A stretch of 64,000 nt of DNA from Anaerolineaceae bacterium (GTDB taxonomy: Bacteria; Chloroflexota; Anaerolineae; Anaerolineales; Anaerolineaceae), in the NCBI GenBank assembly GCA_016841445.1, contig JAENZD010000003.1, positions 251,969 to 315,968 of the forward strand, given 5' to 3'. Positions 572 through 46,509 of this stretch are shown here, in pieces. How positions within the stretch are numbered: the stretch's first letter is position 1; every line of letters starts with the position of its first letter. The translations under genes were made by a program, and so were the position numbers. The notes beneath the pieces were generated by a model. It ran no database searches, was not told the origin of the DNA, and saw only the letters and a list, made by a program, of their open reading frames with translations.

Positions 572-679
572 GTTGAACTCATCCATGATGTATCAGATTG
601 AGCGACAAAAAAGTCCTTGAAATATTTATCGAAAACTTGCATCATGAAGGAATTCCATGCATGGGAATTAAACACAAGG

Positions 680-773
680 CGGGAATGGATGGGAGTCGAA
701 CCCACCACGGCTCGCAACGCGACCCGACACCGGTGTTGAAGACCGGGAGGCCCACCAGGACCTAACCATTCCC
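680..773 (-). tRNA. selC: tRNA-Sec (anticodon UCA)
   Basis: Reverse complement GGGAATGG TTAGGTCCTGGTGGGCCTC CCGGT CTTCAAC ACCGG TGTCGGGTCGCGTTGCGAGCCGTG GTGGG TTCGACT CCCAT CCATTCCC G: 8-bp acceptor, 5-bp anticodon stem with UCA, long variable arm, 5-bp T stem with TTCGACT loop, G discriminator. Confidence 0.93.
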
Positions 774-904
774 ACCCATAAGAATATCTTTTCAACCTGT
801 GCTTGTCAACTGATATTGCTGGTAATAAAGCTTTAATTTCATTAAACATTGCTTAACAATGGAATCCGTGCTCAATGGTAAAATTTTTTACATGATTTGT
901 TAAT

Positions 905-38533: not shown

Positions 38534-39573
38534 AAAACAATAAAAAACTGATCTCAATGTGTTTGATGATCCTATTCCTGCTTGTCTCCTGCAGCGGGGG
38601 GTCTCAAAACAACTCGGCCAATGAAGTAAAGTTGATCCTGGGTGCGTACACAACCCCCAGAGAAGCTTACAGCCAGATCATCCCGCTGTTTCAAGCCTTT
38701 TGGTTGGAAGAAACTGGTCAAAGGGTTGTCGTCGAGGAGTCGTACCTTGGGTCTGGCGCGCAATCACGAGCAGTGATCAATGGATTTGAGGCAGATGTGG
38801 TTGCACTCTCCCTGGAAGCAGACGTGAACCGGATCCAGGATGCAGGGCTGATCAGCCATGATTGGAAACTGGGGGAGGAGAAGGGAATCATTACGACATC
38901 CGTTGTTGCGTTTGCAGTTCGAGAAGGGAACCCCCTGGCCATAGAAGACTGGAATGACCTTCTCCAACCCGGCTTGGAAATCCTAACGCCCAATCCCAGT
39001 ACAAGCGGGGGGGCGATGTGGAACGTTTTGGCATTATACGGTGCAGCCTTAAGAGGGAAAATTGATGGTGTACCTGGAGACGATGCGGATGCAGCCCAGG
39101 ACTTCTTAAAAGATGTTTTAACAAACGTGAGTGTGATGGACAAAGCTGCTCGAGACAGCATCATCAATTTTGAGAATGGGATTGGTGACCTTGCGATTAC
39201 CTATGAGAATGAAGTACTTGTCGGCAGGCAATCCGGGCAAACTTATGAACTTGTGATCCCTTCCTCGACCATATTGATTGAAAATCCCGTCGCGATCGTC
39301 GATACAAGTGTGGATAAACACGGTAATCGGGCGGTTGCTGAGGCATTTGTCGAATTCCTCTATTCGGAACAGGCTCAGGAGATTTTTGCCCAGCACGGCC
39401 TGCGCGTTGTGAATGACACAGTTGCTGAGGCATCTAAATCACAATACCCGGATGTCCCGGACTTGTTTACCGTCGATTACTTTGGCGGATGGGATGTGAT
39501 CATGACTGACATCTTTGGAGAATCAGGCATCTTTACCCAGGCGATCCTGGATGTGCAGGGGGGAAGCCAGTGA
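38530..39573 (+). CDS. sulfate ABC transporter substrate-binding lipoprotein
   Basis: LLVSCSGGS lipobox; AYTTPREAYSQIIPLF, EESYLGSGAQSRAV, ALSLEADVNRIQ. Confidence 0.92.
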   Translation: MKNNKKLISMCLMILFLLVSCSGGSQNNSANEVKLILGAYTTPREAYSQIIPLFQAFWLEETGQRVVVEESYLGSGAQSRAVINGFEADVVALSLEADVNRIQDAGLISHDWKLGEEKGIITTSVVAFAVREGNPLAIEDWNDLLQPGLEILTPNPSTSGGAMWNVLALYGAALRGKIDGVPGDDADAAQDFLKDVLTNVSVMDKAARDSIINFENGIGDLAITYENEVLVGRQSGQTYELVIPSSTILIENPVAIVDTSVDKHGNRAVAEAFVEFLYSEQAQEIFAQHGLRVVNDTVAEASKSQYPDVPDLFTVDYFGGWDVIMTDIFGESGIFTQAILDVQGGSQ

Positions 39574-40409
39574 TGGATATTCCGTTATCCGGAACTTTTC
39601 AAAAGAGAAAACTGCCTCACCTCGCCATGCGAAGTGCGGGGTTGACCTATATCATTTTGATGATCGTGGTTCCGTTAATTGTGATCCTCCAGGACGGATT
39701 CCGGGAGGGTGTATCGGAATTGATACGCCAAATATCACTGCCCATTGCGAAACATGCCATTGTACTGACCCTGTGGACTTCAGCATTGATGACCCTGATC
39801 AATGCCGTGATGGGACTTATCACAACCTATGTGATCGTCCGATTTTCCTTTCCTGGAAAGCGACTATTGAATGCTTTGATCGATTTACCTTTGGCTATCC
39901 CAACCCTTGTGACCGGGGTTATGCTGGTGATGCTGTACGGTCCACAAGAAGCGATAGGCGGGTTTCTCTCACAAAAAATTAGTTTGGATATTATTTTTGC
40001 TCCTCCAGGGATCGTCATTTCCCTGCTATTCATATCCTTTCCTTTTGTTGTCAGAAATATTCAGCCTGTACTTCAGGAACTGGACCTTACCCAGGAAGAT
40101 GCTGCCGCCACGTTAGGCGCAAGTCCCTGGAAAATTTTCTGGAAAGTGGTTTTCCCGAGTCTGTTTTTGCCGCTGCTCAGTGGGTCGCTTCTCAGTTTTT
40201 CCCGCGCTGTGGGCGAGTTCGGTGCTGTTGTCATTGTGGCGGGGAATATTCCTTTGAAGACTCAGACCGCAGCAGTTTACGTATTGGGTGCGGTTGAATC
40301 CGAGAACCGTTTAGGTGCCAGTGCAGTCTCAATTCTTTTGGTTGCGATTGCGCTGCTGGTGTTATTTATTGCCAACAAACTGCATCAACGCTGGGGTGTA
40401 AAACAGTGA
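39570..40409 (+). CDS. cysT: sulfate ABC transporter permease CysT
   Basis: DLPLAIPTLVTGVMLVMLYG, EEDAAATLGASPWKIFWKVVFPSL-like EAA loop, RAVGEFGAVVIVAGN. Confidence 0.9.
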   Translation: MMDIPLSGTFQKRKLPHLAMRSAGLTYIILMIVVPLIVILQDGFREGVSELIRQISLPIAKHAIVLTLWTSALMTLINAVMGLITTYVIVRFSFPGKRLLNALIDLPLAIPTLVTGVMLVMLYGPQEAIGGFLSQKISLDIIFAPPGIVISLLFISFPFVVRNIQPVLQELDLTQEDAAATLGASPWKIFWKVVFPSLFLPLLSGSLLSFSRAVGEFGAVVIVAGNIPLKTQTAAVYVLGAVESENRLGASAVSILLVAIALLVLFIANKLHQRWGVKQ

Positions 40410-41221
40410 AAAACAGGAAGCTGGGATTGGGTGCCTGGCTGTTGATCGGGCTGGTCATCCTATATATGGGCTTTTTGTTGATTGCCCCGATAACGGCATT
40501 GATCAAAGGTGCTTTTGAAGATGGGATTAACCCTGTACTTGGAAGCATACGGTCAGAAGCATTCCTAAAATCATTGCTTTTGTCCGTTGAGATCGCAGTT
40601 CTCGTTGTTGGCGTGCAGACTATTTTTGGAACGCTGACAGCCTGGGTGATTGTACGCCATGATTTCAGGGGAAAAGGAATTCTGAATAACGTGATCGACA
40701 TTCCCTTTGCGATCTCTCCAGTCGTCGTGGGCTATATGTTATTGCTCCTGTTTGGGCGGAATGGCTTTCTTAGCCCTGTTTTAGAGGCACTCAATGTTAA
40801 GGTTGCTTTTGCTGTCCCGGGGATGTGCCTGGCGACGCTGTTTGTCTGCCTGCCTTTCATGATTAGAGAGATGATTCCGGTCATCAAAGGACTTGACCGG
40901 CAGCAGGAGTTAGCTGCTGCTACCCTCGGTGCAAATGCATGGGTCAATTTCTGGCAGATCATTTTTCCCCAATTAAAGAGCGCATTGATCTATGGGATGA
41001 CCCTGACATTAGCGAGGGCATTGGGAGAGTTTGGCGCGGTCTTGATCATTGGCGGAGGTATCCAGGGCAGGACTGAAACTGCGACCCTGTACATTTTCCG
41101 GTGTTTGGAGGAACGGCAATTCGTTCAAGCCTACACGATGTCGATCATCCTGGGTTTGTTTTCTGTCCTTATCGTTGTTCTGGCGGATCGGATCAAGCAC
41201 AAGGTCAAATTCGCCGATTAA
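40406..41221 (+). CDS. cysW: sulfate ABC transporter permease CysW
   Basis: DIPFAISPVVVGYMLLLLFG, AAATLGANAWVNFWQIIFPQLK, RALGEFGAVLIIGGG. Confidence 0.9.
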   Translation: MKNRKLGLGAWLLIGLVILYMGFLLIAPITALIKGAFEDGINPVLGSIRSEAFLKSLLLSVEIAVLVVGVQTIFGTLTAWVIVRHDFRGKGILNNVIDIPFAISPVVVGYMLLLLFGRNGFLSPVLEALNVKVAFAVPGMCLATLFVCLPFMIREMIPVIKGLDRQQELAAATLGANAWVNFWQIIFPQLKSALIYGMTLTLARALGEFGAVLIIGGGIQGRTETATLYIFRCLEERQFVQAYTMSIILGLFSVLIVVLADRIKHKVKFAD

Positions 41222-43601: not shown

Positions 43602-44060
43602 TTAAGGTTCTGTCGGGTAACCGGCTTCGATCCAGGCTTCATAGCCGCCCAGGATCGGATTGGCTCGTGAGAAACCTGCTTCGTACATTAGAAACGCCAC
43701 ACGGGCGCTTGTATTTTCAGCCGGTCAGGTGCAGTAAGTGACGTACCAGGCTTCGGGATCCAATTCGGCTAAGGATGAATCGATTTGATCAAGTGGAACA
43801 TTGATCGCACCTTCAGCATGGCCAGCCTGGAATTGGGTTACTGTTCGGGTGTCGACCAGGATTGCTTCTCCGCTGGTGAAAGCTTCATATGCTTCATCTA
43901 CTGTTACTCTTGGAATGTCATCCTGGGTGGCGTAATCACCTGGATTTTCAATATTTGCCCGGCGTAAGCTTTGGGCAAGGATCAAACCACCAATACTCAA
44001 TACGATGACTACAGCAAATAAAATGATCGGTAATATAGTTTTATTCTTTTTGCTTTTCAA
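43602..44060 (-). CDS. membrane-anchored rhodanese-like selenoprotein candidate (Sec at in-frame TGA 43725-43727), 152 aa
   Basis: Read-through of TGA gives YVTYCT-U-PAENTSARVAFLMYEAGFSRANPILGGYEAWIEAGYPTEP*, the expected rhodanese C-terminus; TM anchor at N-terminus; SECIS-like hairpin downstream; tRNA-Sec in the same window. Confidence 0.88.
43692..43710 (-). promoter_or_regulatory. Bacterial SECIS-like hairpin
   Basis: Minus strand AAGCGCC-CGTGT-GGCGTTT, 7 bp (one G-U), 5-nt apical loop with G at position 2, loop starts 21 nt after the TGA. Confidence 0.75.
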
Positions 44061-44088: not shown

Positions 44089-46509
44089 TCACTTAAAACG
44101 TTTTAGACGCAGGCTGTTTGTGACAACAAATATGCTGCTGAACGACATCGCGCCTGCTGCCAGCATGGGATTTAATAACCCAAGAGCAGCTGCAGGAATC
44201 AGGATGATGTTATAGAAGAACGCCCAGAACAGGTTTTGTTTAATTGTTCTGAGAGTCTTCCTGGAAAGCGATATTGCTTTCGGTACTCCCCTTAAATCTC
44301 CGCTGATCAGCACAACAGGTGCTGAAGCCATGGCGACATCTGTGCCTGTACCGATGGCAATCCCAATATCTGCTTTTGCCAGGGCTGGGGCATCATTGAT
44401 CCCGTCGCCTACCATCGCTACGACGTGCCCACCATCCTGCAGTTTTTGGATTTCTGCAGCTTTTTCACCCGGCAGCACCTCTGCAAGCACCGTATCCACG
44501 CCAACCTGCTGGGCAATGGCATCTGCTGTACGCTGGTTGTCACCGGTCATCATGGCGACCGTAAGCCCCATCTTATGGAGGGAGTCGATTGCTTCAACGG
44601 ATCCCTCTTTGATGGTATCCGCTATGCCAACAATAGCAGTTACTTGATTTTCAACAAAAATTAAAATTGCAGAATTTCCGGCTGCTTCAAGATGCTGCAG
44701 GTCGCTTTCTAAATCGCTGATATTGATATTACGTTCTTTCGCAAGGCGCCGGCTGCCAACAGCTATCTGCCGGCTATCAACTTCCGCCTGGACGCCGTGG
44801 CCAGCAATTGCTAAAAAACCGAGAGGTTCACTGAGTTTCAAACCCCTGGCATTGGCTTCCGCTGTGATTGCTTCACCCAGGGGGTGCTCACTTCCTTTTT
44901 CGACGGATGCCGCCAGACGGATGATCTCATCTTCACTCCTGCTTGTGCCGTAGGTCAATACACGTGTTACTGCTGGTTGCCCTTTGGTGATCGTCCCTGT
45001 TTTATCCAGCACAACCATCGTGATTTCCCCAGCTCGTTCCAGGCTGTCACTTTTCTTGATGAGGATGCCCAATTCGGCACCCTTCCCTGTGCCAACCATC
45101 ACCGCGGTTGGGGTCGCCAAACCCATTGCACAGGGGCAGGCAATCACCAGAACGGCGACGGTGTTGATCAGCGCTCGCGTAAATAAGCTGACAGCTGGAT
45201 CAGGACCTAAGGGTACCAGGAAGTACCAAACGATAAATGTGACTGCCGCTATACCGATCACAACGGGGACGAAGATGGCTGAAATTTTGTCTGCCAGGTT
45301 TTGGATGGGTGCTTTGCTGGCCTGGGCTTCTTCAACTAATTTGATGATTTGCGAGAGGGCTGTTTCTTTGCCAATCTTTGTAGCCTCAAATTTTAGCAGC
45401 CCCAGTTTGTTAATCGTGCCGCCGATGACCTCATCACCTGAATTTTTTTCAACAGGAAGGGATTCCCCTGTCAGCATTGACTCATCGATACTGGAACGTC
45501 CATCAACCACAACCCCATCTACCGGGATTTTCTCGCCGGGATGAACCAGGACAACATCTCCAACTTCAACACGATCAACAGTGACCTCCACTTCAATACC
45601 ATCCCGGATGATGTAGGCTTTGCGTGGGCGCAGGTCCATCAGCTTTCGAATGGCATCACTGGCACCTCCCTTTGCCTTGACTTCAAGGAATTTACCGAGC
45701 TTAACCAGGGTGATAATAACAGCTGAAGTCTCAAAATATACATGCCCGGGGATCAACCCAAAGACAATGGGTATTGAATAGAAATATGCGGCTGAGGATC
45801 CCAGTGCCACCAATACATCCATGTTTGCTGAACCGCTGCGGATAGATTTAAATCCATTCAGATAATACTGCCAACCAACATAGAATTGAACCGGTGTCGC
45901 AAGCGCCCAAAACAGGTATGCAAGCCAGGGTGCATGCGCGATGCTCATGGGCAGCAAGCCGAAATCCCGACCCATAGAAAGGAGGAACAATGGCACGGTG
46001 AAGATCAGGCCAATTATCAGGAGCTTTCGCTGTAGGGCAACTTCTTTTTTGCGTGCTTTTGCTTCAGCATCCTCAAGATTCAGGTCTGCTTCGATCGGCT
46101 CAAAACCTGCCGAGCGGATTGTGCGTCGCAGTTCATTTTGGCTGACAACAGTTGGGATGTACCGAACCAATGCTTTCTGGCTGGCAAGATTAACGCTTGC
46201 CTCGATCACACCTTCTATAGCTTTCAGTTTCTTTTCAAGACGTAGTACATCAGCCTGATCTGATAAATTCTTGATCCCAAGTGAGGCTTCTCCCATTGCG
46301 ACCTCATACCCCGCGCGTTGGACGCGTCCGATGAAATCTGCTATGGATGCCTTTTCAGGATCATAGCTGACTGCGGCGCGTTCTGAGGAAAGGTTGACAT
46401 TGGCAGTTTCAACGCCGTCTACCTTCTTCAGGTTGCGTTCAACAGTCGCGACGCAGTTTGCGCAGGTCATTCCCAGGATGGGGAGGGTCAGGTGCTTCTC
46501 TTCAGCCAT
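44089..46509 (-). CDS. copA: copper-translocating P1B-type ATPase
   Basis: GMTCANC HMA motif, [32 protein letters not shown]. Confidence 0.95.

Follow-up and report, generated by a model that had tools for sequence, protein, structure and literature searches.

The selC locus

The window, i.e., the whole 64-kb stretch of DNA that was analysed, carries a tRNA-Sec gene preceded by a putative promoter and, beside an ATPase gene, a rhodanese gene that has a TGA in frame and a SECIS-like hairpin. The features, with the evidence on which each was placed, are:

680..773, minus strand: tRNA-Sec gene, selC (ARAGORN, Rfam RF01852, stem parsing with 35 relatives)
781..809, minus strand: putative selC promoter (TTGACA, 17-nt spacer, TATTCT)
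43603..44060, minus strand: rhodanese selenoprotein gene (translation, Pfam, TGA orthologues in 34 family genomes)
43692..43710, minus strand: SECIS-like hairpin (fold and covariation over 29 orthologues)
44089..46509, minus strand: P1B-type heavy-metal ATPase with HMA domains (Pfam), directly upstream of the rhodanese gene

ARAGORN called a single tRNA in the window, a tRNA-SeC with the anticodon tca (678-773, minus strand), and RF01852 matched 681-773 on the same strand at 69.5 bits (E 3.8e-12), compared to a gathering score of 47 bits, over its full length (model positions 1-91 of 91). Stem parsing placed the anticodon UCA at 739-737 and G73 at 680, and the coordinates 680-773 given by the initial annotation are exact once G73 is counted. 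As determined by scripted parsing, the acceptor stem GGGAATGG/CCATTCCC is paired at 8/8 positions, the T stem GTGGG/CCCAT at 5/5 with the T loop TTCGACT, and the D stem AGGTCC/GGGCCT at 6/6 with the 4-nt loop TGGT; the anticodon loop is CTTCAAC and the variable arm is long. The gene has the tRNA-Sec architecture of a UCA anticodon, an 8+5 acceptor/T stack and a 6-bp D stem. The parsing confirmed every element of the minus-strand 8+5 cloverleaf that had been described (UCA within CTTCAAC, long variable arm, TTCGACT), and the proposed likeness in layout to known bacterial tRNA-Sec agrees with the two models, both of which accepted the fold. G73 is followed by CCT, hence CCA is not encoded, as had been noticed; the 36 tRNA-Sec genes parsed, of which the window gene is one and the rest are from relatives, all lack an encoded CCA. 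Taken together, these results show that 680-773 on the minus strand is a genuine, canonical bacterial tRNA-Sec gene, whose product is predicted to be functional by all sequence tests at hand.

The putative promoter matches the consensus at 10 of 12 positions and ends 7 nt ahead of the tRNA 5′ end. In 11/11 loci compared, ten of them from relatives and one from the window, TTGACA-N17/18-TATNCT was found at about the same distance, with a spacer sequence that varies from locus to locus; this element looks like a conserved promoter dedicated to selC. The tRNA gene is located upstream of an alpha-amylase-like gene on the opposite strand, a layout shared by ten relatives: two MAGs each from Brevefilum and Mesolinea, and six other Chloroflexota/Anaerolineaceae MAGs. 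Because of these amylase relatives, which share 72% identity at best, the source organism is probably placed near Brevefilum in the Anaerolineaceae.

Selenocysteine genes elsewhere in the genome

The assembly (3.35 Mb, 8 contigs, 98.85% complete) was searched for selA, selB and selD, and all three were found in full length and above the curated cut-offs: SelA on contig C3 (533 bits, cut-off 268), SelB on contig C6 (343 bits, cut-off 242) and SelD on contig C6 (333 bits, cut-off 125). The genome carries the complete selA, selB and selD set by which the Sec-decoding trait is recognized. Since these genes and selC lie on different contigs or far apart, their link is genomic rather than operonic; the assembly is 4.6% contaminated, and contamination is an unlikely but conceivable source of some of these genes.

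The genome contains five or more predicted selenoprotein genes with an in-frame UGA, including one inside the window: selD, three peroxiredoxin-family genes and the rhodanese gene. A single TGA lies in frame inside the SelD domain (LTTLSSCAGUASKL), and this SCAGU form matches the Sec form known for SelD; the single-sequence fold after this TGA was unremarkable (z -0.83). A family scan revealed three peroxiredoxin-family genes (L138, L139 and L142, on contigs C3 and C4) whose peroxidatic position is encoded by an in-frame TGA (DFTFVUPTEL, RGFTUPYC and RGFVUPFC), and which correspond to one 2-Cys peroxiredoxin (FVUPTE) and two Prx-like proteins (UPYC and UPFC). L144 (C3:1523924-1524298, minus strand), which is closely paralogous to the Prx-like selenoprotein gene L142, has a garbled active-site stretch followed by a TAG and is probably a decayed pseudogene.

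Genome searches for other selenoprotein families gave only sub-threshold relatives of Sec formate dehydrogenase (TIGR01591), none with a TGA, no match to the HesB-like selenoprotein (TIGR01911), and two AhpD/CMD genes (PF02627), both without a TGA. Among the TGA-interrupted genes that the initial annotation had suggested looking for, the prx-like genes were found, along with selD and the rhodanese gene, and a Sec formate dehydrogenase was not. We also checked whether the tRNA fold was rejected or the Sec machinery was missing, and neither was the case; the machinery and the genes with a TGA at catalytic positions support the earlier suggestion that the organism probably decodes UGA as Sec.

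The rhodanese gene of the window

The rhodanese gene begins with TTG and encodes an N-terminal transmembrane anchor and a rhodanese domain. Its in-frame TGA (43725-43727) occupies the catalytic position in the motif YCTU, and a TAA stop follows 40 residues past the TGA; the read-through sequence is WYVTYCTUPAENTSARVAFLMYEAGF...GGYEAWIEAGYP. When the TGA was counted as a residue, the Pfam Rhodanese model covered the whole domain with 48.7 bits, compared to 35.2 bits when only the sequence ahead of the TGA was scored, and YCTU was present in 29/29 orthologues extracted. A mechanical search for TGA read-through frames, which required at least 45 codons on both flanks, missed this gene because only 40 codons follow the TGA, and a motif search of the window listed it. 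The other frames from the mechanical search resembled shadow or antisense frames, and one frame (39983-41218, TGA at 40295) was put down to overlap with the ABC permease gene at 39570-40409. The adjacency of the ATPase and rhodanese genes was found in 5/5 genus members by tblastn synteny and was absent from the flanks of the other loci compared.

Counted from the first TGA base, the SECIS-like hairpin starts 17 nt further downstream, and its apical loop is CGUGU. The pair that closes the loop is formed in all 29 orthologues, as C-G in 20 of them and as U-A in the other 9. Both bases are third codon positions around SAR(A/V)A (e.g., GCC...GCG vs GCT...GCA), so the changes are synonymous and therefore not required by the protein. 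Four further pairs of the hairpin also show double changes. The covariation score was 0.276, compared to 0.168 (sd 0.019) for shuffled alignments, of which 0/500 reached 0.276, a comparison that can be inflated by related sequences; slid-partner controls, which keep the relatedness, gave at most 0.135. In more distant orthologues, the lower stem pairs (columns 18-36 and 19-35) frequently fail to form, and therefore the conserved core consists of five pairs. Single-sequence folding of the rhodanese hairpin revealed no unusual stability (z 0.50), and the support for a putative SECIS comes from covariation and not from fold energy. The rhodanese gene combines an in-frame TGA with a covarying SECIS-like hairpin downstream, two of the features by which the Sec-decoding trait was assessed.

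Sec decoding in the family and comparison with known systems

In a family sample of 81 genomes, a strong tRNA-Sec (60 bits or more) was found in 71 and selA above its cut-off in 72. The TGA rhodanese was found in 34 genomes, and 34/34 were among the 71 with a strong tRNA-Sec. In the genera g13 and g17, none of the sampled genomes had selA, a strong tRNA-Sec or the TGA rhodanese. Within this Anaerolineae family, Sec decoding is the usual state, and the two genera lack its components jointly. Four genomes (G002, G005, G023 and G025) have selA, and their matches to the tRNA-Sec model, including those from a second search, were only at the level of other tRNAs. Three of these genomes are clearly incomplete; G025 is 99% complete in 30 contigs, and its full-length selA without a strong tRNA-Sec may reflect a gap in the assembly, a tRNA-Sec that has diverged, or a trait in decay. 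Class-wide, the rhodanese profile matched 61/299 genomes at E <=1e-25, with the TGA nearly always present. In addition, the rhodanese homologues of the class members G093, G225, G330 and G333 have two TGAs in frame each, which may encode two Sec residues.

Read from the DNA, the locus and its genome provide a tRNA, a predicted promoter, partner genes, in-frame TGAs and one covarying putative SECIS. On this basis, 680-773 on the minus strand is almost certainly the functional selC gene that serves Sec insertion in an uncultured, Brevefilum-related member of the Anaerolineaceae. By homology with the bacterial Sec pathway, selC would be transcribed from its own sigma-70-type promoter, CCA would be added post-transcriptionally and the tRNA would be charged with serine; SelA would then convert it to Sec-tRNA with selenophosphate from SelD, and SelB would bring the Sec-tRNA to those UGA codons that have a SECIS hairpin downstream.

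That the gene is instead a long-variable-arm tRNA-Ser or a tRNA-like remnant resembling tRNA-Sec, with UGA a plain stop, is highly improbable. Other loci in the genome, presumably tRNA-Ser genes, do score on RF01852 (45.5 bits and lower), but selC scored 69.5 bits compared to about 45 for those loci, and the UCA anticodon, the conserved promoter and the TGA-containing genes also argue against this reading, which is refuted by the 8-bp acceptor, the 6-bp D stem and the partner Sec genes. The UCA anticodon alone would permit a suppressor-type or reassigned tRNA by which UGA is read generally, i.e., a change of the code rather than Sec at selected UGAs. We consider such a code change hardly credible, since SelA, SelB and SelD are present, the TGAs found occupy redox-active positions and, apart from the rhodanese, the window holds no convincing long frame that crosses a TGA, the rest being antisense- or shadow-like. 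With selC serving Sec insertion, the rhodanese, SelD and the three peroxiredoxin-family genes would be cut short, or lose their starts, in gene calling that takes every UGA for a stop. Sec decoding would also have been kept in a genome in which no Sec formate dehydrogenase was found.

A 2006 record of Sec use in Chloroflexi counted three selenoproteins, belonging to three families (PMC1794560), and for Chloroflexi of the deep sea there is a report of Sec formate dehydrogenases (PMC5736913). CxU rhodanese selenoproteins are listed in reviews, one under NF041203 (PMC13188914, PMC9312934), which is rhodanese form 3 in PMC13188914. The tRNA-Sec itself is ordinary, a standard component of the textbook, already known Sec system. 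It shares with bacterial tRNA-Sec (RF01852) the 8+5 stack, the 6-bp D stem with a 4-nt loop, UCA, the long variable arm, G73 and a full-length model match; it differs in that CCA is unencoded, as in every relative parsed, and in nothing else notable. The Sec forms of SelD and of the peroxiredoxin and Prx-like families likewise have the TGA at the catalytic position here, with no notable difference.

The YCTU rhodanese clade of Anaerolineae is the least-described part and has some novelty. We tentatively suggest, with somewhat more doubt than confidence, that extracytoplasmic YCTU selenorhodaneses anchored in the membrane form a so far undescribed subfamily throughout the Anaerolineae, that the window rhodanese is one of them, and that it is coupled to the P1B metal-transporting ATPase in the genus. 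If true, this coupling would point to extracytoplasmic redox chemistry of sulfur or metals based on selenium. NF041203 (rhodanese_LYCAU), the closest named selenoprotein model, matched 21/21 aligned rhodanese members at E <=0.001, and the window protein has in common with it the rhodanese domain and the CxU motif, with Sec second in the CxU catalytic loop. In contrast, with 70 bits the window protein falls short of the model's equivalog cut-off (115 bits); it also bears a membrane anchor at its N terminus and carries YCTU instead of the LYCAU of the model name.
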